Source of the DNA: a virus
Reading direction: 5' to 3' (one strand)
Virus record (IMG/VR): IMGVR_UViG_3300037091_000039
Location: 1-49,365 of that record
Length of the DNA stretch: 49,365 nt
The notes under the pieces are model-generated. The model searched no databases, was not told where the DNA came from, and saw nothing but the letters and a program-made list of their open reading frames with translations. The position numbers and the translations under genes were made by a program. Every line of letters begins with the position of its first letter. Position 1 is the stretch's first letter. Shown piece by piece: positions 3,636 through 49,365 of the stretch.

Positions 3636-4037
3636 ATGTTCATTATTCAAGCACCATATCCGACGTTACAAGTAACTATGTTACTTCCAAATCCACAATT
3701 TAGTGATGCCGAATCATTGTTGGATACTGTCAATATAAAACGGGCGATGGATGGAACGCTCTATACGTATGTTCACACGCGAGAGAGTAGACGAAAGCTA
3801 AGTTTGAATTTTTCACTCACCCGAAACAAGGCTCTTGAATTACGTGCTTTTATCCAGTCTTATTTTTCCTCTAAGGTAAAAATAAAAGACCATAATAACC
3901 GAGTATGGGTTGTAAATTTTACCAACAATCCGTTTGAATATGACACCCCCGAGAGAGCCGCACCGGCTATCTCTCCTATGCCATTAGGTGAGTTACAGAC
4001 AATAACTCTTGAATTCGAGGGAATCGAGATAGTATGA
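3636..4037 (+). CDS. Putative minor tail protein
   Basis: I chose the ATG at 3636 (MFIIQAPYPTLQVTMLLPNP) because it follows the stop of the re-joined upstream frame at 3634; an in-frame start at 3564 would overlap that gene. The 133-residue product has features of small tail-completion or distal-tail proteins: RRKLSLNFSLTRNKALELR, then IKDHNNRVWVVNFTNNPFEY, and an acidic end (TLEFEGIEIV). It overlaps the large hub gene by ATGA. Assignment rests on position and general resemblance; no enzymatic motif is visible. Confidence 0.6.
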   Translation: MFIIQAPYPTLQVTMLLPNPQFSDAESLLDTVNIKRAMDGTLYTYVHTRESRRKLSLNFSLTRNKALELRAFIQSYFSSKVKIKDHNNRVWVVNFTNNPFEYDTPERAAPAISPMPLGELQTITLEFEGIEIV

Positions 4038-7886: not shown

Positions 7887-8471
7887 CTACCGCGCGGCCA
7901 GAAGTGCTTTATATACTTGAGCCTCAGCTATAGAGTCGGCCAGAGCGTCGTGAGGCTTGGTGTTGATGATTCCAAATTGCTGGCAAAGTTCTTTTAGACC
8001 CACACTTTTGTAAGGTATTTCTTCGCCTCTTAGTGCTGCTGCATCATTTAATGCCAGGGCATGAATCATAGCGTCTCTTGGAAGGTAATGAAAGATTCGG
8101 TCCATTTCGGCACAACCGAGCCATACTTTGAGAAATGAATTTTCAAACACAAAATTATGTGATAAAGGAATAAGGCGTCCGCCAACCGACAAATGCAAGG
8201 TTTCAAACCATTCTGCTAATTCATCGGCCACTCGTTCTTTACCGGGGGCGTCATTTAATTCTTCGAGTGTAAGACCATTGATAACTAGGGCTTGCACTTC
8301 GGTTCGTTCTGGGTGATCTGGTTTGATATTTGTATAAAACGGTGTACCTATTGGTTTTAAACTGTTATCTAAAGGTACAATTGCAATTTGAATAATATCG
8401 TGGAATCCAGGTCGGACGCCGGTTGTTTCAATGTCTATCGCCACTATTATATTATTTTTTAAGTGCTTCAT
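7887..8471 (-). CDS. DnaQ-like 3'-5' exonuclease (DEDD family)
   Basis: 194 residues. Exo I is AIDIETTGVRPG near residues 11-22, Exo II is SHNFVFENSFL near 104-114, and Exo III is HDALADSIAEAQVY near 173-186, with the His typical of the DEDDh subgroup. Family members degrade DNA or RNA 3' to 5', often for proofreading or nucleotide recycling. The Exo II position that is normally Asp (HNxxFD) is Glu here, which may weaken catalysis. It is the last gene of the - strand replication operon. Its start overlaps the stop of an HNH gene that appears to have been inserted immediately upstream. A separate repair or recycling role is likely, since the polymerase carries its own exonuclease domain. Confidence 0.85.
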   Translation of the reverse strand: MKHLKNNIIVAIDIETTGVRPGFHDIIQIAIVPLDNSLKPIGTPFYTNIKPDHPERTEVQALVINGLTLEELNDAPGKERVADELAEWFETLHLSVGGRLIPLSHNFVFENSFLKVWLGCAEMDRIFHYLPRDAMIHALALNDAAALRGEEIPYKSVGLKELCQQFGIINTKPHDALADSIAEAQVYKALLAAR

Positions 8472-8956
8472 AGTACATTCAACCTTGCATATTCACCGTG
8501 ATATTTCTTGGCGGCAGAATTATATGCCCTGGCTGCTTCCTCTTTATTGATAAATAATCCGAGGTATATTTTACGGTAATCTACTTGGATTTGTGCAACC
8601 CATTTTCTATTTGGTTTGTTCCAATGAACACCTTTAAAGCCAGACATATTATCCCGGTGCCTGATTTTATTGCGGCAATTTTCAGCATTAGTAGCTGGGC
8701 GAAGATTTGATCTTCTATTGTCCAATTGATTTCGATTGACATGATCGACTTGTGTAAAATTTTTAAATCCCATTCGTTTTATAATGAGTCGGTGCATTAA
8801 AATTGTTGTATGTCCTGTCGATGTATAAATCGTTCGTCCTGCACTGAGGCGGTGCGGCGGATAACATAAAGTACACCATTTCCATTGATTAAGAAAAACA
8901 TAATCAACGTCGCTGACTAGCGCAAACTTTCCTTGTGTGAGTTTGATGCGTTTCAT
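8468..8956 (-). CDS. HNH homing endonuclease with AP2 domain (copy 1)
   Basis: 162 residues, first of six related copies in the window. The N-terminus MKRIKLTQGKFALVSDVDY and LNQWKW are followed by an HNH core (MHRLIIKRMGF, VDHVNRNQLDNRRSNLR, then NAENCRNK). A C-terminal AP2-type DNA-binding domain reads SGFKGVHWNKPNRKWVAQI and EEAARAYNSAAKKYHGEYARLN. Such proteins nick or cut specific DNA sites and spread their own genes. It sits between a small membrane gene and the exonuclease, its stop overlapping the exonuclease start. This copy has a longer insert between the first Trp pair and the HNH core than its relatives. Confidence 0.9.
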   Translation of the reverse strand: MKRIKLTQGKFALVSDVDYVFLNQWKWCTLCYPPHRLSAGRTIYTSTGHTTILMHRLIIKRMGFKNFTQVDHVNRNQLDNRRSNLRPATNAENCRNKIRHRDNMSGFKGVHWNKPNRKWVAQIQVDYRKIYLGLFINKEEAARAYNSAAKKYHGEYARLNVL

Positions 8957-12567: not shown

Positions 12568-13320
12568 ATGTCTAAAGAATTGGTTCCGTTTAATGCCGAT
12601 CAGTTAAATCAACTCCCGTCTACACAGCTCGGCACGGATGAAAGTTTTAATGATTTGGCTAAGAATTCTGGCTTTCTCAAGTATTTGAAGCTGTGTTCTA
12701 ATGACAAGTACGCAAAGGCCGGTAAGATCGCCTCTGGTCACTGGGGTATCCCTGATAGTGACGGGGCAATTCAAGATTTGGGCACATCCATCGACGTTTT
12801 ACCCCTGGCTAAACGCCCTAAAGCGGTCGATATGAAGGATAAGTCTGCCTTAATCATTTCTTACGATGTGACTGCTGCCGAATTCAAACGAATTCGATTG
12901 GAAGCGGCGGAAAAAGACTCGGATTGCCAGTTTGGCGTCAGTTTCTTGGTTCTGGAACGGTCCACGGGACAATTCCTCGAACTATTCTTCGGTAATGAGA
13001 CTTCGCGCCGCAAATTACAAGAAGTATATCCATATTTGCCCTTATCACAGGCGGATATTGATGCCCGTGCAGCTAATAAGCAAGATGTGACCGATTTGGA
13101 GCCACATTTTGCGTTACCCCTTACTATCAATATCAAATTTATTGAGGATAAGAAAGGCCGGTCGTGGCATGGTCCCGTGCCGGTAAAATGTTCGGCACCG
13201 TTTGCCAAAATTCCTCCAATAGAGGAAATTGTAGAGGCGATCACTAGGTTTAAGGCTGTCAAATCAGACGGCGTTGAAAAGATTGCCGAACCGGAAGGCA
13301 AAAAGAAACGAGCGCGATAA
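12568..13320 (+). CDS. Replication-module protein of unknown function
   Basis: 250 residues, first gene of the long rightward train, with GAGGT nine bases upstream of the ATG. No catalytic motif is recognised. The middle (about 85-150) alternates strands and charge (SALIISYDVTAAEFKRIR, FGVSFLVLERSTGQFLELFFG). The C-terminus is basic (EGKKKRAR). Abundance next to the origin and a basic tail would suit a DNA-binding accessory protein, but that is inference. Codons from 13047 to the end are part of a 412-bp tandem duplication, so the last 91 residues are encoded again downstream. Confidence 0.7.
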   Translation: MSKELVPFNADQLNQLPSTQLGTDESFNDLAKNSGFLKYLKLCSNDKYAKAGKIASGHWGIPDSDGAIQDLGTSIDVLPLAKRPKAVDMKDKSALIISYDVTAAEFKRIRLEAAEKDSDCQFGVSFLVLERSTGQFLELFFGNETSRRKLQEVYPYLPLSQADIDARAANKQDVTDLEPHFALPLTINIKFIEDKKGRSWHGPVPVKCSAPFAKIPPIEEIVEAITRFKAVKSDGVEKIAEPEGKKKRAR

Positions 13321-13330
13321 CTCTGATTAT

Positions 13331-13377
13331 CTAATCCGGAATCGTGCTGGCCGACGGCAGTTACGATTCTGGATTAG
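13331..13377 (+). other. Intergenic stem-loop, first copy
   Basis: The arms ctaatccggaatcgt (13331-13345) and acgattctggattag (13363-13377) pair over 15 positions with one G-U, around a 17-base loop. No U-run follows (gatttaattaaac), so a classical terminator is unlikely. RNA processing, mRNA stabilisation or attenuation are possible. An identical copy 412 bp downstream comes from the tandem duplication. Confidence 0.7.
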
Positions 13378-13390
13378 ATTTAATTAAACT

Positions 13391-13732
13391 ATGGTCCCAG
13401 AAGCATGTTTTATTGTGAAACCGGATATTAACTTCGCTACGTTTGTTGGCCTCAGTCAACAGGCGGATATTGATGCCCGTGCAGCTAATAAGCAAGATGT
13501 GACCGATTTGGAGCCACATTTTGCGTTACCCCTTACTATCAATATCAAATTTATTGAGGATAAGAAAGGCCGGTCGTGGCATGGTCCCGTGCCGGTAAAA
13601 TGTTCGGCACCGTTTGCCAAAATTCCTCCAATAGAGGAAATTGTAGAGGCGATCACTAGGTTTAAGGCTGTCAAATCAGACGGCGTTGAAAAGATTGCCG
13701 AACCGGAAGGCAAAAAGAAACGAGCGCGATAA
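13391..13732 (+). pseudogene. Chimeric ORF created by the tandem duplication
   Basis: 113 codons. The first 23 or so (MVPEACFIVKPDINF...) are the start of the gene at 13803. At 13459-13464 they fuse in frame to the last 90 codons of the gene at 12568 (ADIDARAANKQ... to KKKRAR). It keeps a full reading frame and the same upstream sequence as the gene at 13803, so a fusion protein could be made. It is a by-product of the duplication rather than an independent gene. Confidence 0.85.
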
Positions 13733-13742
13733 CTCTGATTAT

Positions 13743-13789
13743 CTAATCCGGAATCGTGCTGGCCGACGGCAGTTACGATTCTGGATTAG
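13743..13789 (+). other. Intergenic stem-loop, second copy
   Basis: Same as the stem-loop at 13331-13377, moved by 412 bp. It sits just upstream of the intact gene at 13803, so it was probably the original element between the two genes. The 15-bp arms and 17-base loop are unchanged. Confidence 0.7.
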
Positions 13790-13802
13790 ATTTAATTAAA
13801 CT

Positions 13803-14321
13803 ATGGTCCCAGAAGCATGTTTTATTGTGAAACCGGATATTAACTTCGCTACGTTTGTTGGCCTCAGTCAACAGGCTCTTGGGCGTAGTCCGGCTACCAA
13901 AGTAGACTCTAGTGCTCTACATCCATCGGAAACTACACGCTTCCTGAGTTGTCTGGCAGCGTTACGTGACCCGCACGCGCCAGTAGGTTTGTCCCCACAT
14001 TTATTGGCTCATGTGACATTCAGTATATTAGTCGCCGCAGATGAACGTGATATGTTCGATATTATACAGGTCGTAGCGGGTATGCCGTTTATAGTGACAG
14101 ACATGATTATGCGTGGTGTACAATTATCCGTTATAACCGGTAATCTCAATCAATGGAGAGATTGTGTAATATCTGGATCGGTGACGAAAGTTGAATTTAA
14201 CGTGAGGGTGTTCTTTAACAATGTGATGCAATTATTCATTATCAATGGCTTGGATGTGTGGAAAGAACTCAAACGTACTTCTGTCAAAGATGGAACTTTT
14301 TTACTCACCCATTCCCCATGA
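13803..14321 (+). CDS. Hypothetical protein, weak ThyX-like resemblance
   Basis: 172 residues with no visible Shine-Dalgarno; the upstream sequence is taattaaact. Segments such as LLAHVTFSILVA (about 60-71) and LSVITGNLNQWRDCV (about 102-116) recall the LEHxxFTF and SGNxRxWR stretches of flavin-dependent thymidylate synthases. The hallmark RHRxxSxxxxSxR motif is absent, so activity cannot be claimed. It could be a degenerate ThyX relative or an unrelated orphan. Its first 23 codons are duplicated upstream. The stop region overlaps a 16-bp tandem repeat where an HNH gene follows. Confidence 0.55.
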   Translation: MVPEACFIVKPDINFATFVGLSQQALGRSPATKVDSSALHPSETTRFLSCLAALRDPHAPVGLSPHLLAHVTFSILVAADERDMFDIIQVVAGMPFIVTDMIMRGVQLSVITGNLNQWRDCVISGSVTKVEFNVRVFFNNVMQLFIINGLDVWKELKRTSVKDGTFLLTHSP

Positions 14322-14345
14322 AAGAAATTCCCCATGAAAGAAATT
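14314..14345 (+). repeat. 16-bp tandem duplication at a gene junction
   Basis: The unit ccccatgaaagaaatt occurs at 14314-14329 and 14330-14345. The first copy contains the stop of the upstream gene as ATGA and an ATG whose frame soon ends. The second copy holds the productive ATG of the HNH gene. It looks like a small duplication that separated an original ATGA overlap. Confidence 0.9.
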
Positions 14346-14963
14346 CCACAGTTGGTATGGGACCAGATTGCTAGATTTTGGTCACATGTACAATGGCAAT
14401 ATGGTGATAGATGTTGGATATGGAAAGCCGGTAAGGGTAGACGTGGCTACGGACATTTTTATCTTAATGGTCATACTTACAAAGCGTCTCGAATTGCATA
14501 TTACTTACAAACAGGAATAGACCCTAGAGATAAACAGATTTGCCATGTTTGTGATAATCCTTCTTGCGTAAATCCTAATCATCTTTGGGCCGGAACTAGT
14601 AAGGACAACAATCAAGATAAAACCAAGAAAGGCCGACAAGCAAGAGAAGAAAATCATGGCCGTTCCAAACTTACTGTATCGGATATATTGATAATAAAAT
14701 CAGTATCAGATAATACTGTAGTTTTGGCAGAACAATTTGGCGTCGGAAATGCAATTATCAGTAAGATACAGCGCGGTATTCTCTGGCCTGATGTGGCACC
14801 GCACCTAACACGAAAGTCTAAGAGACCTGGATTAACACCGGATATAATTCGTGAGATTCGTCAATCTAGTTTACAAAATTATTTACTCGCAAGAAAGTTT
14901 CATATAAGTGACGCTATGATACATAATATAAAGAATAAATTAGCGTGGCGAGGTATCGAATGA
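14334..14963 (+). CDS. HNH endonuclease with HTH region
   Basis: 209 residues. The HNH core reads RCWIWKAGKGRRGYGHFYLN, YKASRIAYYL, then ICHVCDNPSCVNPNHLWAG and TKKGRQA, the HNH_3 pattern with a CxxC...C zinc site. The C-terminal half has two repeats resembling helix-turn-helix DNA-recognition units (LTVSDILIIKSV...VLAEQFGVGNAIISKIQRG and LTPDIIREIRQS...LARKFHISDAMIHNIKN). It probably acts as a free-standing homing endonuclease. A relative with one HTH unit is at 29283. Its stop overlaps the helicase start as ATGA. Confidence 0.88.
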   Translation: MKEIPQLVWDQIARFWSHVQWQYGDRCWIWKAGKGRRGYGHFYLNGHTYKASRIAYYLQTGIDPRDKQICHVCDNPSCVNPNHLWAGTSKDNNQDKTKKGRQAREENHGRSKLTVSDILIIKSVSDNTVVLAEQFGVGNAIISKIQRGILWPDVAPHLTRKSKRPGLTPDIIREIRQSSLQNYLLARKFHISDAMIHNIKNKLAWRGIE

Positions 14964-20623: not shown

Positions 20624-22996
20624 ATGACTAAACTTTATCTGGACACAGAAACTTGCGGCCTATACGGTATGCCCGTCTTATTCCAGTACGCCGTGGAAGA
20701 CGGGCCTATTGTATTATATGATATATGGAAGCATCCAATAAGCGAAACCCTTTCACTTATAGAGTGGATGATGACACATACCATAGTCTTCTTTAATGCC
20801 GCCTTCGATATGTTTCAACTCGCTAAGTGTTATACAACATTTCGTTTGGTCCCCCATAATTGGATAGCGGAAGAACATATTGATGAAATAGCCTGTTGCG
20901 AAACTTCTGGCATGGAAGGCCCGTGTCTAAAACCAGCGGGCGTTCTGGACCTTATGCTCCATGCTAGGAAGGGTCCATACCAATCACTCATGGCGCGTGA
21001 TCCTGTGCGTATTAAACGGGTGCCTAACGCTCTCGCGTGCGCTCTCGCCCAGGAACTAGAACAAAGAATTGAGTTCGATGGTATCTATTTTGCCAAGACT
21101 AAGGATAAAAATGCCCCACGTTGGAAGGTATTGGACCGTAAGAAACGGGACGGCAATATAGATAAAGATTTCAAAGATGTTGTTCTCAAGTTTAATCCAG
21201 CCGGTGGTTTGAAATTCTTGGCAGAACATGCCCTTGGATTACAACCAAAATATCACTTCAAAGATGTGGAAGTCGATCCAATCTATAGACCAGTCGAATT
21301 AGGTTATGCTCCATTCGCGTGCGCCTTGTCTAGTGCTGATAAAGGTTGGTATGTGGCACCCAAGAAAAAAGCCAGTAAAAAACAAAGCAAGAGACATTAT
21401 GCTTGGCCCGGCGTGATAAAATACCATATTGACCATTGGGCGACTAATTTAAACGCCCGTGAATATGCCAAGGATGATATTGTTTATACACGGGCACTAG
21501 ATATACATTTTGGTTGCCCTGAACCAAATGACAATGATTCTGTGTTGGCAGCTATGGTTGCTGTGGTACGTTGGCATGGCTTCCAGATTGATATAGCCGG
21601 TATACAGGAATTGAAAGCCAAGGCGAACGCCATTGTCGATAAGGCTCCGGTGAATTGCAATAAGCCTAAAGATATTAAGGCGTACATAAATGAAGTCATG
21701 GATGAAACTGAAAAGTTGGTATCAGAATTCAAATGTGTTGGTGAAAGCACTAAGAAATCTAATCTCGAAGCCCTTGCATCCGATAAATGGAACATACTAG
21801 AGCCAGAACCATGTACTTTATGTGGTGGAGATAATTCCAATATTGAATACTTCTGTCATCGTTGCAATAATACCGGGATTCTACAACCAGGGCCACACCC
21901 TGTTTCTTTACGGGCGAAAGAAATTCTCGATATTAAAATCGCCAATAAAGAAATTGAACTCTACGCCAAACTTTTAGTGGCTAGAAAGTTACATGCGTCT
22001 TTTGTAGTCATTGGAACTAAATCAAGTCGTATGTCCGGTGCCGATGGTCTGAATCCGCAAGGTATAAAGCATACGATAGAGGTAAGACGACTTTTCCCCT
22101 TGGCTTGGGGAGGAATGAATCTCAGTCTTGGTGACTTTGCTGCGTTTGAAGTTACCCTAGCTGACGCCGTGTACAAAGACCCACAATTACGAGCAGATTT
22201 ATTATCTGGGAATTCAATACATGCGAATTTTGCTGTACGTTTATTTAATTTATCACTTGAAGATGTCAAGGCATCTAAAGGCACCGCAAATGACATGTAT
22301 ACTAAAGGTAAACAGGCTATTTTTGCGATGTTGTATGGGGGGACCTGGGAAACTTTAACTCGTAAGTTGAATGTTACACAGGAACGGGCTATGGCCGCGT
22401 TCGCATGGTTTGCTCAAACATATCCCGAAGCTGAGAAAACTAGACGCAAGATTTCTGATGCGTTCTGTTCGATGCGACAAGAGAACAATAAACAAGTTAT
22501 CTGGCGTGAACCAGCAGAATACTCCGAAACTTTCTTAGGTTTTAGACGATTTTTTACATTGGAAAATAAGATTTGTAGAGCACTATTTGATCTTGCTCAC
22601 AAACCTCCCAAGGAATGGAGAGATTGCAAGGTTAAAGTTGTACGCCGGGATCGTGTACAGACAGCCAGTGGGGCTGTTCAAAGTGCCTTATTTGGTGCTG
22701 CTTTTGGTATCCAGAACTCGAATCAACGTGCGGCGGGAAATAATGTTATTCAAAGTCCGGGTGCCGAGATAACTAAAACCGTGCAACGAAAGGTTTGGGA
22801 TATTCAGCCGGTTGGTGTAAATGATTGGAATGTACTATGTATGAATTGCCATGATGAAGTAGAAGTCGTACATAGACCAGAATTAACTGAACTTGTACAA
22901 ACCACAGTCCTTGGAACAGTCGAATCTTTTAGGGACCGCGTACCCTTAATCGGTATGGACTGGAAAACTAATGTACCTAGTTGGGGCGAGAAATGA
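20624..22996 (+). CDS. Family A DNA polymerase with 3'-5' exonuclease domain
   Basis: 790 residues. The exonuclease domain shows LYLDTETCG near 4, FFNAAFDMF near 56, and AKDDIVYTRA near 281. The polymerase domain has motif A LSLGDFAAFEVTLADA near 498, motif B KGKQAIFAMLYGG near 560, and motif C CMNCHDEVEVV near 738, so the enzyme should be active. A Cys4 insertion CTLCGG...CHRCNNTG near 396-418, between the two domains, is unusual and resembles a DnaJ-type zinc knuckle. It copies the phage genome with the primase-helicase and SNF2-like helicase. A 40-bp promoter-like element precedes it and an HNH gene overlaps its stop by ATGA. Confidence 0.93.
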   Translation: MTKLYLDTETCGLYGMPVLFQYAVEDGPIVLYDIWKHPISETLSLIEWMMTHTIVFFNAAFDMFQLAKCYTTFRLVPHNWIAEEHIDEIACCETSGMEGPCLKPAGVLDLMLHARKGPYQSLMARDPVRIKRVPNALACALAQELEQRIEFDGIYFAKTKDKNAPRWKVLDRKKRDGNIDKDFKDVVLKFNPAGGLKFLAEHALGLQPKYHFKDVEVDPIYRPVELGYAPFACALSSADKGWYVAPKKKASKKQSKRHYAWPGVIKYHIDHWATNLNAREYAKDDIVYTRALDIHFGCPEPNDNDSVLAAMVAVVRWHGFQIDIAGIQELKAKANAIVDKAPVNCNKPKDIKAYINEVMDETEKLVSEFKCVGESTKKSNLEALASDKWNILEPEPCTLCGGDNSNIEYFCHRCNNTGILQPGPHPVSLRAKEILDIKIANKEIELYAKLLVARKLHASFVVIGTKSSRMSGADGLNPQGIKHTIEVRRLFPLAWGGMNLSLGDFAAFEVTLADAVYKDPQLRADLLSGNSIHANFAVRLFNLSLEDVKASKGTANDMYTKGKQAIFAMLYGGTWETLTRKLNVTQERAMAAFAWFAQTYPEAEKTRRKISDAFCSMRQENNKQVIWREPAEYSETFLGFRRFFTLENKICRALFDLAHKPPKEWRDCKVKVVRRDRVQTASGAVQSALFGAAFGIQNSNQRAAGNNVIQSPGAEITKTVQRKVWDIQPVGVNDWNVLCMNCHDEVEVVHRPELTELVQTTVLGTVESFRDRVPLIGMDWKTNVPSWGEK

Positions 22997-23466
22997 AAAA
23001 GATTAAACTTACTCAAAATAAGTTTGCACTGGTAAGTGATATTGATTACGCCTATTTGAATCAATTCAAATGGTACAGTCTCCATATTCGTGATGTATTT
23101 TATGCAGTGCGTAAAGTTAATAAAAAGACCATATTGATGCACCGTGTTATTCTCGAAAGAATGGGATTTACAAATTTTAAACAAGGCGATCACCGTGATC
23201 GGAATAGTTTAAATGACCAACGGCGAAATCTTCGAGTCGCAACGCACGGAGAGAATCAACAGAATAAGAATAAACAGTGTAATAATACATCTGGCTATAA
23301 AGGTGTTATTTGGGATAGGGTTCACGGTAAATGGTTAGCCCGCATTAAAGTTGGCGGCTTAGTAAAATGTGCCGGTTCATTTACAAATAAACTTGACGCC
23401 GCCAAAGCATATAACGACGCGGCCAAAAAATATCACAAAGAATTTGCGAGACTTAATCCCGTATGA
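22993..23466 (+). CDS. HNH homing endonuclease with AP2 domain (copy 2)
   Basis: 157 residues from the ATG that overlaps the polymerase stop. N-terminus MKKIKLTQNKFALVSDIDY, HNH core MHRVILERMGF...QGDHRDRNSLNDQRRNLR, AP2 domain SGYKGVIWDRVHGKWLARI and end FARLNPV. In this copy the conserved GKFA is NKFA at the start and KEFA at the end. It is inserted between polymerase and VRR-NUC genes, so invasion cost no neighbouring codon. Confidence 0.92.
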   Translation: MKKIKLTQNKFALVSDIDYAYLNQFKWYSLHIRDVFYAVRKVNKKTILMHRVILERMGFTNFKQGDHRDRNSLNDQRRNLRVATHGENQQNKNKQCNNTSGYKGVIWDRVHGKWLARIKVGGLVKCAGSFTNKLDAAKAYNDAAKKYHKEFARLNPV

Positions 23467-23843
23467 GACATAAACACGGACCAGAATATAAGATACAGAA
23501 AGACATAATCGTCTTCCTGACGGCCCGTGGATGGCATGTAGAGCGTATCATTGGCAATGCGTATCAATCTGGCCTCCCTGATTTGGTGGCTTTTAATCCA
23601 AAATGGGGCACACGTTGGATTGAAATAAAGAATGATGGGAGGTACACATTTACAAAGGCCCAACGAAGGAAATTCCCCGTTTTTGAACGATATAACGTAG
23701 GAATATGGATTCTCACGTCGGCTACACAAGAACAGTACGATCTTCTCTTTAAGGAACCTAATTGGCGGGATTACTGGAAGGATTCCTGGGGCGACATTCC
23801 TGATATTGATAAACTTCTAGCGGAGATTGAAGATGATGAATGA
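23463..23843 (+). CDS. VRR-NUC domain nuclease
   Basis: 126 residues in ATGA overlap with the HNH gene. It has the VRR-NUC layout: N-terminal helix with PEYKIQKDIIVFL, then GNAYQSGLPDLVAFNPKWGTRWIEIK (Asp and E-x-K metal-binding core), then FTKAQRRKFPVFE. Stand-alone VRR-NUC proteins are Holliday-junction or structure-specific nucleases in many phages. Next to the polymerase it probably resolves replication or recombination intermediates. Confidence 0.88.
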   Translation: MRHKHGPEYKIQKDIIVFLTARGWHVERIIGNAYQSGLPDLVAFNPKWGTRWIEIKNDGRYTFTKAQRRKFPVFERYNVGIWILTSATQEQYDLLFKEPNWRDYWKDSWGDIPDIDKLLAEIEDDE

Positions 23844-28762: not shown

Positions 28763-29286
28763 ATAGACTAAGAAATAATCGCTGCTATTTATCCGGTGCA
28801 ATGGAATTCATGCCAGATTTAGGTGTCCAATGGCGAGAACAAATAAAAATTGACTTGTCTGATCTCGGTATTATCTGGCTAGACCCGTGTAAAAAACCGA
28901 CTAACGCAATAAATGAACAACAAATTATACCTATATTAAAAGCAGCCAGGGAAGCCAAACAATATGATAAAATACGTGAACTTGGCAAAGCAATCCGACA
29001 TATTGATCTGCGCTTAGTAGATTGTGCTGATTTCCTTATTGTAAATTTGGATTTATCCATCCCCACTACGGGGACACATGAAGAAATAGTAACAGCTAAT
29101 CGGTCTAAGAAACCAGTTATCGTGCGAGTTGTACAAGGGAAGTCAGCCGCGCCTTTTTGGTTATTTTGGATGCTTCCACATGAATTGATCTTCTCTACTT
29201 GGGAAGAAATTCATACATATTTACGTAATGTAGATTCTTGTGATAGCGCCCCCGATCTAAACCGTTGGTTATTTTTTGACCTATGA
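28759..29286 (+). CDS. Nucleoside 2-deoxyribosyltransferase-like protein
   Basis: 175 residues from a GTG in GTGA overlap with deoC. CYLSGAMEFMPDLGVQWRE fits the N-terminal strand-loop of the nucleoside 2-deoxyribosyltransferase family, and VDCADFLIVNLDLSIPTTGT with HEEIVTANRSKKPVIV fits the later nucleotide-binding strands and catalytic Glu region. The family exchanges nucleobases between deoxyribonucleosides or hydrolyses modified nucleotides. With deoC it makes a small salvage unit. Confidence 0.75.
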   Translation: MNRLRNNRCYLSGAMEFMPDLGVQWREQIKIDLSDLGIIWLDPCKKPTNAINEQQIIPILKAAREAKQYDKIRELGKAIRHIDLRLVDCADFLIVNLDLSIPTTGTHEEIVTANRSKKPVIVRVVQGKSAAPFWLFWMLPHELIFSTWEEIHTYLRNVDSCDSAPDLNRWLFFDL

Positions 29287-29732
29287 CACCACTAGAGATC
29301 GCTAAATTTTGGTCACAAGTAAAACGAACTTCCGGTTGTTGGCTCTGGACAGGATCATATTTCAGAAATAAATATGGTCGATTCAGAGTTAATGGTAAAA
29401 GTTGTTTAACACACCGACTAGCATTTGAACTAATCAATGGTTATGGCCCCGGAAGTTATTATGTATTACATCATTGTGATAATCCTAGATGTGTGAATCC
29501 CGCACATTTATTTACGGGAACACAAAAAGATAATTTAATTGATATGGACAAAAAGGGACGCCGCAAAAATCCCGATATACGTGGGAGTAAGAATCCAAAT
29601 GCCAAACTTACTCTTAAAAATGTGAAATATATTAAACGAAGCACTAAATCAAACTCCGAATTAGGAAAAGAATTAGGTATTACTCCGACTCAAGTTGGGT
29701 ATATCCGCAGAGGAAAAAGTTGGAAATTATAA
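29283..29732 (+). CDS. HNH endonuclease (HNH_3 type) with one HTH unit
   Basis: 149 residues in ATGA overlap. Core: GCWLWTGSYFRNKYGRFRVN, LTHRLAFEL, then LHHCDNPRCVNPAHLFTGTQ and DMDKKGRR, with a Cys-rich zinc site. C-terminal ELGKELGITPTQVGYIRRG is a single helix-turn-helix. Relative of the 209-residue protein at 14334, which has two such units; the pair differ by duplication or loss of one DNA-binding repeat. Confidence 0.88.
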   Translation: MTPLEIAKFWSQVKRTSGCWLWTGSYFRNKYGRFRVNGKSCLTHRLAFELINGYGPGSYYVLHHCDNPRCVNPAHLFTGTQKDNLIDMDKKGRRKNPDIRGSKNPNAKLTLKNVKYIKRSTKSNSELGKELGITPTQVGYIRRGKSWKL

Positions 29733-32427: not shown

Positions 32428-33215
32428 TGTTACGATTTTGTATTAGTGATCCTCATTGGTGCGATCAAGGACCGAGAGACAATTTCCATATCAATGGACG
32501 GCCACAACGCTTCAACAAATTCCTAGATTATGTCCAATCTCGTAACGGGGTTCTTTACATCTTAGGGGATTTGTTCGATTGGTGGCAAACTACTGTCGGA
32601 GCATCGGTGATGGCTTATCTTCCGATATTAAATCGACTGAGCCAGATGCAACATCATTACGTCATTGGAAACCATGACAATACATTCAAAGACCTGATCG
32701 GTCAGTGGGTGATGCCTGACATTCCCGTAATTGAAGACAGTGAACTCCCATTTGAAGAAGTCATTGGTGGGAAGAAATTTGCCTTCTTACATGGACACGA
32801 AGCGGACCCCACTTGTTGTAGTGACAACCCTGATATTGGTGAAATAACTGCGATCATGTCTGGTATGTTGGAAGATCGCAACAAAGGCCCGGTAAAGAAA
32901 AATGGTACCGTCGTTGAGGACGCTTTCATTCATTCATTGGAATTGCCATTGAATATTTGGAGGGCCGTGAGCCACCAACGCGACCGCAGAATCGAATTGA
33001 TCGACGGAGTTGAATCTTACAGACTCAAATTGGGTGCCGACGTGGTTGTGTCTGGCCACACCCATGAGAAAGGACGAATTGGCACACATCATTATAATCT
33101 CGGATGTTGGTGCCGAGATTGTGACACGTTTATAATTATTGACGACAATGGAAATGTTACTCTACAAGAGTGGACTGATGATGGTCCTATCTCAAGTGAT
33201 TCGTTATTAAGATGA
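32427..33215 (+). CDS. Metallophosphoesterase (LpxH-like)
   Basis: 262 residues in TAATG overlap. Motifs: CISDPHWCD near 5, YILGDLFDWW near 44, VIGNHDN near 75, FLHGHEAD near 113, and VVVSGHTHEKG near 205, the five metal-ligand blocks of calcineurin-like phosphoesterases. The arrangement resembles UDP-2,3-diacylglucosamine hydrolases and related nucleotide hydrolases. Unlike the HTH-fused enzyme at 17928, no DNA-binding head is present. The substrate is uncertain. Confidence 0.82.
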   Translation: MLRFCISDPHWCDQGPRDNFHINGRPQRFNKFLDYVQSRNGVLYILGDLFDWWQTTVGASVMAYLPILNRLSQMQHHYVIGNHDNTFKDLIGQWVMPDIPVIEDSELPFEEVIGGKKFAFLHGHEADPTCCSDNPDIGEITAIMSGMLEDRNKGPVKKNGTVVEDAFIHSLELPLNIWRAVSHQRDRRIELIDGVESYRLKLGADVVVSGHTHEKGRIGTHHYNLGCWCRDCDTFIIIDDNGNVTLQEWTDDGPISSDSLLR

Positions 33216-33694
33216 GACGAATTAAACTCACACAAGGAAAATATACTTTAGTTAGCACCATTGATTTTGAATATTTGAATCAATGGAAATGGTATGCCAG
33301 AAAACAGAGAAGTACTTGGTATGCAGTCCGGGATATATGGATACCCGTACATAAAATACTTTACATGCACCGGCTTATTCATAACAGATTATATTTCAAT
33401 ACCCAGATGCAAACAGATCATAAAGATCAAAACGGATTAAATAATCAACGAAATAATTTACGGGTCGCCACTAATACGGAGAATAATAGAAATAAAAAGA
33501 AACAAAGAAACAATACTTCCGGGTATAAAGGTGTTTATTGGAGTAATCAAGGACATAAATGGTTTGTACAAATATGTGTAAATAAAAGGTTGATATATTT
33601 AGGTTACTTTACCGAAAAACTAGAAGCCGCAAAAGTATATAATAAAGCCGCTAAAAAATATTTCGGTGAGTTCGCTTACTTAAATCCAGTTTGA
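33212..33694 (+). CDS. HNH homing endonuclease with AP2 domain (copy 3)
   Basis: 160 residues in ATGA overlap. N-terminus MRRIKLTQGKYTLVSTIDF, core MHRLIHNRLYF...QTDHKDQNGLNNQRNNLR, AP2 domain SGYKGVYWSNQGHKWFVQI and end FGEFAYLNPV. This is one of the more diverged copies at its N-terminus (GKYTLV for GKFALV). Confidence 0.9.
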   Translation: MRRIKLTQGKYTLVSTIDFEYLNQWKWYARKQRSTWYAVRDIWIPVHKILYMHRLIHNRLYFNTQMQTDHKDQNGLNNQRNNLRVATNTENNRNKKKQRNNTSGYKGVYWSNQGHKWFVQICVNKRLIYLGYFTEKLEAAKVYNKAAKKYFGEFAYLNPV

Positions 33695-33937: not shown

Positions 33938-34315
33938 ATGAAAGAATTGAAAAATTACCTGATCCTGGCCCTAGTCTCCGTTCTCATTGGATTGGCCTTA
34001 TATAGTGTGTCACCCGTAACGCCCCCAGTTGCGCCAGGAACGCCGCCTGTGGTTGACCCACTGAAACCCCAACCCATAGTCATTAAGACGTTGGTGGATT
34101 ACTACGCGGATTGGTGCGGGCCTTGTAAGGCAGCCAAGCCAATGGTAGATAAACTTGAGAAAGAAGGGGTGATTGTACACCGGGTAAATGCCGACAAATC
34201 CCCTGAGTTACTCCGGGAAAATAATATAAACTCGCTTCCGACGTTCTTTTGCACGATGGGTACTAAACAACTGCGGACCCAAGATATAAATAAGGTAGTC
34301 GCGTTCTTCAAATGA
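33938..34315 (+). CDS. Membrane-anchored thioredoxin-like protein
   Basis: 125 residues. A signal-anchor helix (LILALVSVLIGLALYSV, 8-24), a Pro-rich spacer (VAPGTPPVVDPLKPQP), and a thioredoxin fold with VDYYADWCGPCKAAKP (WCGPC at 59-63) and NSLPTFF (cis-Pro). It would reduce or form disulfides outside the cytoplasm. It could help fold the Cys-bearing exported phage proteins encoded nearby. Confidence 0.88.
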   Translation: MKELKNYLILALVSVLIGLALYSVSPVTPPVAPGTPPVVDPLKPQPIVIKTLVDYYADWCGPCKAAKPMVDKLEKEGVIVHRVNADKSPELLRENNINSLPTFFCTMGTKQLRTQDINKVVAFFK

Positions 34316-34800
34316 AAAAGATTAAACTCACACAAGGTAAGTTTGCACTAGTCAATGATCTTGACTATAAATTTCTTACTCAATGGAAATGGTATACCCG
34401 TAAATGTGGTACTACTTGGTATGCCGCCCGAGCAATTAGAAGTGAGTCCGCGATATGTACAATCTATATGCACAGAGTAATCCTTGAAAGAACGGGCCAT
34501 GCAAATTTTCGACAAACTGACCATCGAAATGGGGATGGTCTTAATAATCAAAGACGAAATTTACGTCCTGCAACTCATACACAGAATCAGCAGAATAGAC
34601 GACCACAGATAAATGAATCGGGGTACAAGGGAGTTTCTTGGGATACCCCGAATAAAAACTGGCGTGCTCAAATCAGATTAAACGGGAAACTTAAAAATTT
34701 AGGAAACTACCGCAATAAACTAGACGCCGCCAAAGCGTACAACAAAGCAGCGAAGAAATATTTTGGTAAATTTGCAAGGGTAAATCCAGACATCAAATGA
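34312..34800 (+). CDS. HNH homing endonuclease with AP2 domain (copy 4)
   Basis: 162 residues in ATGA overlap with the thioredoxin gene. N-terminus MKKIKLTQGKFALVNDLDY, core MHRVILERTGH...QTDHRNGDGLNNQRRNLR, AP2 domain SGYKGVSWDTPNKNWRAQI and end FGKFARVNPDIK. Keeps GKFA at both ends, the arrangement that allows internal deletion. Confidence 0.92.
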   Translation: MKKIKLTQGKFALVNDLDYKFLTQWKWYTRKCGTTWYAARAIRSESAICTIYMHRVILERTGHANFRQTDHRNGDGLNNQRRNLRPATHTQNQQNRRPQINESGYKGVSWDTPNKNWRAQIRLNGKLKNLGNYRNKLDAAKAYNKAAKKYFGKFARVNPDIK

Positions 34801-37831: not shown

Positions 37832-38279
37832 ATATTTACTGGTCTTTCTAGTATTGGCAGTTACTCTCCCTGATCTCACCCTTATTCGCGTAGGCCGTGA
37901 TATAGGTGTAAAAAGTATTGCCACAGGTAAACAACAAGATGACTGTCAGCGCATGGCAGAACGGCAAGCAGCCTATCAAGCCAGAGTAAAAGTCCAGGGC
38001 CACCAAAATTGGGAATCTAGGGTCCAAGAACTTTATCGGGCCATGCCGGATTGTGATTCATTCGCAGAAGTATGTGCAGAAAGTTGGCCTAACCAAGAAT
38101 TGGAGCCAGCGGCACGGGAAATGTTCTATAGTTGGTCACAGTCCCGTGGTAAGGATGGAAAATCGGGCCATTGGGGTGTAGTTGACGGTAAGTGCGATTA
38201 TTGGGGTTATAGCATGTGTAAAGGTTCAAATGGGACATGGTATGCCGCAGGGGTTGTAGGGTATAAACGAAACAAATGA
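37824..38279 (+). CDS. Exported CAP-like domain protein
   Basis: I chose the ATG at 37824 (MIKYLLVFLVLAVTLPDL), giving a clean signal peptide and an AAGGTGA site upstream. The remaining 133 residues show CQRMAERQAAYQARV, AREMFYSWSQSRGKDGKSGH, then CDYWGYSMCKGSNGTWYAAG, recalling CAP superfamily proteins (HW, YWG, NGTWYA pattern) found in exported phage proteins. Four or more Cys suggest disulfides. A role at the cell surface is likely, of unknown chemistry. Confidence 0.6.
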   Translation: MIKYLLVFLVLAVTLPDLTLIRVGRDIGVKSIATGKQQDDCQRMAERQAAYQARVKVQGHQNWESRVQELYRAMPDCDSFAEVCAESWPNQELEPAAREMFYSWSQSRGKDGKSGHWGVVDGKCDYWGYSMCKGSNGTWYAAGVVGYKRNK

Positions 38280-38749
38280 AGAAAATTGCCCTCACTCAAG
38301 GAAAGTTTGCATTAGTCAGTAACATTGATTACGCCTATTTGAATCAGTGGAAATGGTGCGCCCATTTTAATGGTAAAAAATGGTATGTCGTTAGGAGTCT
38401 ACCCGGTATAACTATTTATATGCACCGCCTAATCCTTGAACAGATGGGATATGACAATTTTAATACGGGCGACCACAAAGATGGGGACGGGTTTAATAAT
38501 CAACGTCGCAATTTACGTCCGGCAACCTTTGCTCAAAACAGTCACAATCATAGTAAGACTAATAAAAACAATACCTCCAAATTTACAGGTGTAGGATGGC
38601 ATAAAGTAAATAATAAATGGCGGGCATATTTAACATTCAACAGAAAATACATCCACTTAGGCGATTTTATATCTAAAAACGATGCAAGGTTAGCATACAA
38701 TACCGCTGCATCAAAGTATTTTGGAAAATTCGCAAGAGGTGTAAAATGA
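38276..38749 (+). CDS. HNH homing endonuclease with AP2 domain (copy 5)
   Basis: 157 residues in ATGA overlap. N-terminus MKKIALTQGKFALVSNIDY, core MHRLILEQMGY...TGDHKDGDGFNNQRRNLR, a diverged AP2 domain (SKFTGVGWHKVNNKWRAYL) and end FGKFARGVK. Ends one or two residues shorter than the other copies. Confidence 0.92.
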   Translation: MKKIALTQGKFALVSNIDYAYLNQWKWCAHFNGKKWYVVRSLPGITIYMHRLILEQMGYDNFNTGDHKDGDGFNNQRRNLRPATFAQNSHNHSKTNKNNTSKFTGVGWHKVNNKWRAYLTFNRKYIHLGDFISKNDARLAYNTAASKYFGKFARGVK

Positions 38750-43449: not shown

Positions 43450-43693
43450 ACCGATACCCCCACTTCTGTAAATCGGCTATAAAAGTTCCATCGTGTTCGT
43501 ATGCCATATCGCCCCGCAAGTAAACCGTCCGTATTCGTCTGCACCCATGAACACAATCAAGCAAAACTTTTATAGCCCATTTGTGGTCGTCGAGTACCAC
43601 TAAACTACCGGGACCATATACTGTTTGAATAACGTGTCCACTATATCTGAGCCACTTTGATTGTGGTATACTCATTAGTTCTGATTGAATCAT
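43427..43693 (-). CDS. Hypothetical protein
   Basis: I chose the ATG at 43693 because GAGG lies six bases before it; a start at 43705 has too close a ribosome site. 88 residues with VIQTVYGPGSLVVLDDHKWA and a Cys-bearing basic end. It overlaps the upstream gene by 53 bases and the sigma gene by 23. Confidence 0.55.
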   Translation of the reverse strand: MIQSELMSIPQSKWLRYSGHVIQTVYGPGSLVVLDDHKWAIKVLLDCVHGCRRIRTVYLRGDMAYEHDGTFIADLQKWGYRCEKHRPL

Positions 43694-44633: not shown

Positions 44634-44740
44634 CGAGGTGGATACTTCCAAGAAGTCCGAAGGATTTCGTAAACCACAAACGCCGCCACAATACCAACGG
44701 CACAAATAAAATCATATTTCATAATGAATTGCATAATCAT
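44630..44740 (-). CDS. 36-residue single-pass membrane protein
   Basis: Starts in ATGA overlap with the HNH stop and ends in ATGA overlap with the next gene. MIMQFIMKYDFICAVGIVAA then FVVYEILRTSWKYPPR: one membrane helix with a basic end. A second in-frame ATG at 44722 is possible. Confidence 0.6.
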   Translation of the reverse strand: MIMQFIMKYDFICAVGIVAAFVVYEILRTSWKYPPR

Positions 44741-45216
44741 ATTACTACCCTATTTAATCGCGCAAATTTTCCGTGGTACTTTTTCGCCGCTTTGTTATAT
44801 GCCTGTGCGGCTTCTCTCTTGCTCATAAAATAACCTAGATGTTTTTTGTGTCCATCAAATTGAATCATAGCCCGCCATTTTCCATGAAGTTTATCCCAAT
44901 GAACACCTTTGAACCCAGAACAATTATTTAGATGTTTAATTTGATTACAAATATTTTGTTGATTAGTCGCAGGGCGTAAATTTCTTCTCTGGTTATTTAA
45001 ACCATCGCCATCCTTGTGATCTACTTTCGTAAAATTTATATGTCCTTTTCTTTCAAGGATTACTCTGTGCATCCAAATACTCCTGCCATTATCATCACGA
45101 ACGGCATATTTATTATACCTTCCGTGATTATAATGCCATTTGAATTGATTCAAATAAGTATAATCAACATCACTGACTGATGCGAATTTTCCTTGAGTTA
45201 ATTTAATTCGTTTCAT
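44737..45216 (-). CDS. HNH homing endonuclease with AP2 domain (copy 6)
   Basis: 159 residues. N-terminus MKRIKLTQGKFASVSDVDY, core MHRVILERKGH...KVDHKDGDGLNNQRRNLR, AP2 domain SGFKGVHWDKLHGKWRAMI, end YHGKFARLNRVVI. GKFA at both ends. It is in overlaps on both sides and is the right-arm member of the family. Confidence 0.92.
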   Translation of the reverse strand: MKRIKLTQGKFASVSDVDYTYLNQFKWHYNHGRYNKYAVRDDNGRSIWMHRVILERKGHINFTKVDHKDGDGLNNQRRNLRPATNQQNICNQIKHLNNCSGFKGVHWDKLHGKWRAMIQFDGHKKHLGYFMSKREAAQAYNKAAKKYHGKFARLNRVVI

Positions 45217-48124: not shown

Positions 48125-48340
48125 TCATTCAACAATTTCCAATTTAACTATTGTAATCTGTATAGACGGCGTATCCGTCATCTTATCTCGCTCTACCAAT
48201 AACTGGCGAAACTTCTCAATTCGAGCATGCGCCTTTTCAACACTGGTAAAGGCTGTTGTAGAATTTATGACACGATGCGAGTCCGTCATATAATCCGAAC
48301 CTTCCGCACGCAAGTAATAAACGTAATCTAAAATTTTCAT
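48125..48340 (-). CDS. Small hypothetical protein
   Basis: 71 residues with a GAGGAAAA site. MKILDYVYYLRAEGSDYMTD then VEKAHARIEKFRQLLVERDK, mixed beta-alpha. Its ribosome site lies in the leader copied from the agagccgattttt motif that also recurs near the right edge. Confidence 0.65.
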   Translation of the reverse strand: MKILDYVYYLRAEGSDYMTDSHRVINSTTAFTSVEKAHARIEKFRQLLVERDKMTDTPSIQITIVKLEIVE

Positions 48341-48361: not shown

Positions 48362-48415
48362 TTAAACTTTATTTAGTCTGGCAAACTTTCCTTGAGTGAG
48401 TTTAATTTTCTTCAT
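48362..48415 (-). pseudogene. 17-codon scar of an HNH-AP2 gene
   Basis: It reads MKKIKLTQGKFARLNKV then a stop. The first 12 residues are the exact start of the HNH-AP2 family (MKKIKLTQGKFA) and the last five are the family end (FARLN-type). All the HNH and AP2 core in between is missing. The repeated GKFA-coding sequence at both ends of family genes is the expected recombination site. The ATG overlaps the end of the gene at 48402 as the other copies overlap theirs. Confidence 0.85.
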
Positions 48416-48662
48416 TTTCCAACTCTACTTCGGATACCCAGTCACCCCATGATCCCGTAAAATAATCGTGGCCCTCCTGGATGACAGTACAATCGTATGT
48501 ATCACCCAAATTGATATATACAATTTCCCGATCTTCAATGCTTATATGCTCGATACCAAATGTGATAAATCCGTGGCGTTTCAAATACTGATTGGCGAAT
48601 CTCAAACCGTGGCCATTCTCGGCACACTCACAAGCACGTTGCAGTACAATAAGAGGTATCAT
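48402..48662 (-). CDS. Small hypothetical protein
   Basis: 86 residues. MIPLIVLQRACECAENGHGL then HDYFTGSWGDWVSEVELENE. Its last bases overlap the start of the HNH scar by 14, which marks the former insertion point. Unknown function. Confidence 0.65.
   Translation of the reverse strand: MIPLIVLQRACECAENGHGLRFANQYLKRHGFITFGIEHISIEDREIVYINLGDTYDCTVIQEGHDYFTGSWGDWVSEVELENEEN

Positions 48663-49287: not shown

Positions 49288-49365
<78 letters not shown>

Follow-up and report, generated by a model that had tools for sequence, protein, structure and literature searches.

A 17-codon phage ORF as a probable remnant of an HNH-AP2 homing endonuclease gene

In the Xanthomonas oryzae phages Xop411, Xp10, and OP1, the HNN-AP2/HNH genes include degenerating copies, and a linear gain-and-loss model has been proposed for them (PMC2248197). 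The homing endonucleases of ICP1 belong to the T5orf172 and IPA-HNH families, the latter being the HNH-AP2 family, and in the T5orf172 gene gp174 a stretch of 228 bp between degenerate internal repeats has been deleted in frame (PMC10448857). Of the 268 HNH genes of lactococcal Skunavirus, 56 were judged to be incomplete remnants, and these were located at recurrent sites (PMC12724721). In T4, the start codons of the free-standing seg and mob endonuclease genes overlap the upstream stop codon, for which translational coupling or scanning was proposed (PMC2988022).

The window analyzed here is one IMG/VR record of 49,365 bases, and it carries a 17-codon ORF at 48362 that is almost certainly an internal-deletion remnant (below, a scar) of an HNH-AP2 gene. 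With Xop411, Xp10, and OP1 the window and its relatives share the HNH-AP2 architecture, several copies per genome, and degenerate copies without HNH and much of AP2; the remnants in those phages, however, are truncated HNH or AP2 proteins, whereas the scars described below consist of the two extreme ends of the gene, in frame and with the original start and stop (PMC2248197). The IPA-HNH genes of ICP1 also lie near essential genes, and their instability shows as frameshifts, stops at variable positions, and in-frame deletions, with repeat recombination likewise described for the ICP1 endonucleases, but the ICP1 deletion takes out a repeated DNA-binding module, while the present scars have lost nearly the whole gene, independently in several phages (PMC10448857). 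The Skunavirus HNH genes are of the I-HmuI-like, GVE2-like, and PacI-like types and not HNH-AP2 (PMC12724721), and the discussion of T4 seg and mob concerns low endonuclease expression, not deletion remnants (PMC2988022). The degeneration of HNH-AP2 genes is already known, whereas their recurrent end-to-end in-frame collapse to a mini-ORF appears to be undescribed in the open-access literature.

The short ORF and the intact genes of the window

The DNA polymerase of the window was matched by 34 loci in IMG/VR and by remote sequences only in INPHARED. Phages of 101-110 kb have DNA polymerases 52-57% identical to it. Primase and helicase, besides DNA polymerase, link these phages (G002, L089-L094, and G041, L095-L100) to the window, and no close isolate of the group was present in INPHARED. 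G002 has nine HNH-AP2 genes and the family is numerous in G041 too. The window itself has six intact HNH-AP2 genes of 157-162 aa, which supply both ends seen in the scar. The features that matter here are the following:

8468..8956, minus strand: HNH-AP2 gene 1, intact; ATGA overlap with both neighbours
22993..23466, plus strand: HNH-AP2 gene 2, intact; flanked by the DNA polymerase gene and a small nuclease-like gene, with ATGA at either end
33212..33694, plus strand: HNH-AP2 gene 3, intact
34312..34800, plus strand: HNH-AP2 gene 4, intact; residues 1-12 as in the scar, GKFA at both ends
38276..38749, plus strand: HNH-AP2 gene 5, intact; best DNA match to the first 36 bases of the scar
44737..45216, minus strand: HNH-AP2 gene 6, intact; C-terminus GKFARLNRVVI
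48402..48662, minus strand: upstream gene, 86 aa, orphan; 14-base overlap with the scar ORF (ATGAAGAAAATTAA)
48362..48415, minus strand: 17-codon scar ORF, MKKIKLTQGKFARLNKV and stop; HNH-AP2 N-terminus joined to C-terminus by translation, HMM, and fusion pattern
48380..48391, minus strand: GKFA codons, putative deletion junction, GGAAAGTTTGCC
48125..48340, minus strand: downstream gene, 71 aa, orphan; begins 21 bases past the scar stop, GAGG upstream

All six intact copies match Pfam HNH_3 and AP2, gene 1 with scores below the curated cut-offs. Two more HNH_3 endonuclease genes, of a different family, are located at 14334-14963 and 29283-29732, which brings the HNH genes of the window to eight per 49 kb; homologues of these two occur in several copies in G002 and G003.

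In the scar ORF, the ~12 initial codons of an HNH-AP2 gene run straight into its five final ones; the family motifs of the N-terminus (MKxIxLTQGKFA) and of the C-terminus (G[KE]FAxLN) are there, whereas the HNH core and the AP2 core are not. Both gene ends are thus present in one uninterrupted stretch from which the middle is gone, as is required of a deletion remnant. An HMM of the six intact copies gave the ORF 18.9 bits and detected no other HNH-AP2 fragment within the window. A frame-blind N-to-C fusion pattern (both ends within 30 bases, any frame) matched this ORF only, and the same pattern gave 0 matches over 100 shuffles. The earlier note on this DNA, which had seen in the ORF an HNH-AP2 N-terminus fused to a C-terminus, was confirmed by the translation, the HMM, and the fusion pattern alike. 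Its statement that the N-terminus is exact held, as the 34312 copy has the very same residues 1-12, MKKIKLTQGKFA. The C-terminus, RLNKV and stop, has no exact counterpart among the window copies; the 44737 copy ends in GKFARLNRVVI, and G002 copies end in GKFAVLNKV and stop. At the DNA level, the first 36 bases of the scar are closest to the 38276 copy (32/36 positions). Full copies were also said to encode GKFA at both ends, and this is exactly so in three of the six (34312, 38276, and 44737), the remaining three having GEYA, GEFA, NKFA, or KEFA at one end.

We infer the breakpoint of the scar from a shared repeat. In copies 8468 and 38276 the 11-mer GGAAAGTTTGC is found within the GKFA codons near the N-terminus, and in one G002 copy within those near the C-terminus, which would place the joint at the GKFA codons. 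A single deletion between two GKFA-coding repeats is plausible and fits the window copy; the other scars presented below break elsewhere.

The ATG of the scar falls within the stretch of 14 bases that ends the 48402 gene. The downstream gene, 21 bases off, stands behind its own GAGG, so translational coupling may not matter at this scar. The 48402 protein had one weak PHROG match (phrog_26897, function unknown, E-value 0.0027). Its relatives were found neither in the viral contigs (by a peptide-pattern scan that is sensitive to close relatives only), nor in INPHARED (tblastn), nor in the 34 related phage records, and none of the 48125 protein in INPHARED (tblastn). The 48402, 48125, and 48664 genes had no relatives in the related phage genomes (34 records, tblastn over the fetched loci), and no relative having the 48402-48125 junction, with or without an intact HNH-AP2 gene, was found in the collections searched.

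Remnants and other traces of loss in further phages

Frame-blind gapped patterns were applied to 2.9 million viral contigs. In unrelated phages, the search returned nine more remnants in which the two gene ends are joined, each independent of the others and between 23 and 56 codons long:

L141/L143: 25 codons, MKQIPLTQGQFTIREHGEFAHLNFN
L142/L144: 26 codons, MKEIQLTQGKVAIKYHGEFANLNKID
L148: 26 codons, MKQIELTRGDAAIKEVRGEFARLNNV
L149: 31 codons, MKTIPLTQGQVALAYDTAAKKYFGEFALLNF
L152: 37 codons, MKKILLTQNKFALVDDEAAKKYFGEFARLNFSEVVAA, between terminase subunits
L153: 32 codons, MKEIQLTRGKIALVDDNCAMKYFGEFASLNFQ, head-gene region
L154: 23 codons, MKTIELTRGEFAMVDGEFARLNF
L168: 56 codons
L170: 45 codons

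The L141/L143 and L142/L144 remnants each come from two separate metagenome assemblies, the paired records being nearly identical phages. The L142 remnant sits between two DNA methylase genes, and the gene preceding the L143 remnant, which is large, adjoins a terminase-like gene, and has no PHROG match, was read as a portal gene. Together with that of the window, the ten scars differ in sequence, in length (17 to 56 codons), and in their joint. A check proposed along with the original observation, a search for other short fusion ORFs, was positive in kind, with nine elsewhere of 23-56 codons, and negative for the exact joint: the strict pattern LTQG[KE][FY]AR-L-N had 0 other matches in the viral contigs, being too narrow where the gapped one worked. 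In 84,980 bacterial and archaeal genomes the same fusion patterns gave 0 and 4 matches, all 4 of them unrelated by translation. A 31-residue composite query against INPHARED recovered only C-terminal pieces and one near-full-length gene, and intact genes sought there at the junctions of the other scars amounted to one weak match for the portal junction (L143), matches under 30% identity for the terminase junction (L152), and nothing useful for the head junction (L153). Among the pattern hits, L145-L147, L150, L155-L157, L162-L167, and L169 were set aside as chance matches, their translations lacking HNH-AP2 ends, and L151 was rejected as it is the C-terminus of an intact gene.

One of these junctions was met in three states. 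A DNA methylase gene stands upstream of the 26-codon L142/L144 scar; in L023 an intact HNH-AP2 gene, beginning at 4001, comes after the same methylase (86% protein identity), and in L066, whose methylase is 88% identical, there is no HNH-AP2 gene and the flank equals that of the scar phage as far as the next gene's ATG. The downstream gene is not the same among the three phages. In the same genomic neighbourhood L049 has an intact gene, beginning MKEIQLTQGKVA and ending GEFANLNKID and stop, that carries the N- and C-terminus of the L142 scar: 72/81 bases match between the scar and the gene ends, the joint falls at bases 32-35, where there is little homology, and the comparison implies a deletion of 402 bases (134 codons). 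The L142/L049 pair and the three-state junction provide the best evidence that these ORFs are deletion scars rather than independent short genes.

The remnants show that the HNH-AP2 family has been repeatedly lost by in-frame end-to-end deletion. By analogy with the scars at other junctions, the reading of 48362 as a deletion scar is well supported; the proposal that it is such a scar with the reading frame kept, already made in the earlier note, has gained nine independent analogues and one three-state junction in its favour. Loss has also taken other forms. Decayed HNH-AP2 genes in G002 and G041 include one split by a stop codon and one C-terminal fragment. At the DNA polymerase junction (window 22990-23470; L105-L138), the HNH-AP2 gene is intact in the window and in L114, cut off after ~33 residues in L107, and absent from L105, L106, L109, L110, and L133, with the nuclease-like gene overlapping at ATGA in the empty junction of L105; L118 and L135 have another HNH type there, as read from the translations.

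In the usual view, the homing cycle consists of invasion, fixation, degeneration, and loss, and in phages loss is usually visible only as presence or absence of the gene. A compact, searchable N-to-C scar marks the site of a former gene, which would allow a count of past insertion sites and a measurement of how, and how fast, the genes are lost. Such scars also give rise to very short ORFs that look like annotated genes without being genes. Their recurrence across ten phages is the most useful result of the present analysis.

Reading frame, terminal repeats, and tight junctions

All ten fusions are in frame, though the search patterns permitted any frame. A null of one in three was deemed misleading, and a null based on repeats was used instead. 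To this end, repeats shared by the first 75 and the last 120 bases were counted in 88 intact HNH-AP2 genes and 949 control genes. At lengths of at least 4, 5, 6, and 7 bases, 45%, 52%, 64%, and 74% of the end-to-end repeats of the HNH-AP2 genes were in frame, versus 40%, 42%, 44%, and 47% in the control genes, and in-frame terminal repeats of at least 6 bases were about two-fold more frequent per gene (1.44 versus 0.76). Under the repeat null, ten in-frame fusions out of ten have p = 0.0003 (at least 4 bases), 0.012 (at least 6), or 0.05 (at least 7), and are thus only moderately improbable. Repeat-driven deletion accounts for part of the frame bias; selection would likely contribute as well.

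At 7 of the 10 scars, and at 32 of the 86 intact genes, neither neighbour is more than 10 bases away. This enrichment is weak, with a Fisher p of 0.085 (0.030 when the window is left out), and looser ORF-length cut-offs apply to most of the scars. In a tight junction, an in-frame deletion keeps the stop codon where the start of the next gene expects it. Since most remnants are in tightly packed junctions, in-frame deletion would keep translation passing onward; the step from junction position to translational coupling is an inference that agrees with the overlapping start codons of the T4 free-standing endonucleases (PMC2988022). Among the intact HNH-AP2 genes in the fetched loci, an ATGA overlap was present upstream in 33/86 and downstream in 18/86. 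Their conserved MK start gives ATGA automatically, and they accordingly look like drop-in cassettes for ATGA junctions.

It is possible, and we put it forward tentatively, that in-frame collapse is filtered by selection for translational continuity, so that only deletions with the original start and stop in the same frame survive and the mini-ORFs persist as translational bridges between adjacent phage genes. If true, the homing cycle would have a distinct "footprint" stage, the mini-ORF, that could be recognised across whole genomes. The scars also pose a testable question, whether translation across former endonuclease sites must be preserved.

Origin of the scar and alternative explanations

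Very probably, a full-length HNH-AP2 homing endonuclease gene once separated the 48402 gene from the 48125 gene. It would have lost ~430 bases, as judged from the size of the intact copies, in one internal deletion that took away the two domains and fused codon ~12 to the five final codons; the most likely route is illegitimate recombination or replication slippage between the short similar GKFA-coding sequences at the two ends. The remnant is devoid of endonuclease function, and with the original start and stop codons kept, so are the original spacing and frame relations with the neighbours. Deletions of this type recur in the family and are in frame partly since the short repeats common to both ends tend to share a frame, and probably also since an in-frame remnant would leave translation in tightly packed operons undisturbed. 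To this account as a whole, that is, 48362 as the remnant of a full-length HNH-AP2 gene and recurrent, partly repeat-driven in-frame deletions, we assign a probability of roughly 0.85.

Alternatively, selection could have maintained the short ORF, once the endonuclease had gone, as a functional peptide or a translational bridge. Such a role would agree with the ten of ten in-frame fusions, most of them between overlapping or near-touching genes, and with the unchanged sequences of L141/L143 and L142/L144 across two records each. The duplicate records are nearly identical phages, however, so their sameness says little, and the frame bias is in part mechanistic. Neither the HNH core nor the AP2 core is left in the peptides, whose lengths and joints vary, and predicted RNA structure around the window scar showed nothing notable (z -0.45). 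For a conserved small protein one would also look for the fused LTQG[KE][FY]AR-L-N elsewhere in the viral contigs, where it is unmatched and where the other scars differ. We therefore regard selection for the peptide as rather unlikely.

The earlier note suggested a self-removing design, under which the repeated terminal GKFA would have evolved as an exit route for the endonuclease gene. Many copies do encode GKFA or GEFA near both ends, and the roughly two-fold excess of in-frame terminal repeats points the same way. Yet only the window scar among the ten joins at GKFA, the others joining at AI, VDD, AK, and similar; L154 retains both GEFA motifs; a GKFA-like in-frame 12-mer repeat (at least 9/12) was found in only 21 of the 88 intact genes; and in relatives the gene is also seen cleanly missing, truncated, or interrupted by a stop codon. 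As both motifs are within conserved family sequence, a terminal repeat needs no selection for excision. With such varied breakpoints, so small a repeat excess, and other modes of loss in relatives, a self-removing design was abandoned as very improbable. A chance ORF or an assembly error is hardly credible. The record does contain a perfect tandem duplication of 412 bases and closes with (GCGCGG)n, so faults elsewhere are conceivable, but the fusion pattern had no match in the shuffled sequences, the structure recurs in ten phages, and the occurrence of two scars in two separate metagenome assemblies each argues against assembly error, as do the joining sequences of at most 12 bases, which are shorter than usual assembly k-mers. 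The deletion of an HNH-AP2 gene is thus the reading we retain.

Some further features of the window were recorded. The 412-bp duplication (13047-13876, 2.0 copies, 100%) repeats the C-terminus of the 12568 gene, and contig G001, 99.98% identical to the window, stops within it; it is either a recent duplication or an assembly fault. The end of the record (49289-49365) consists of 12.8 perfect GCGCGG copies and is probably a sequencing or assembly artefact. Allowing at most one mismatch, the motif AAATCGGCTCT occurs at 43470, 45226, 46463, 48341, and 49264 (five versus 0.77 expected), all within the last 6 kb of the window and at least two of them near gene starts; it is possibly a regulatory or ribosome-binding element.
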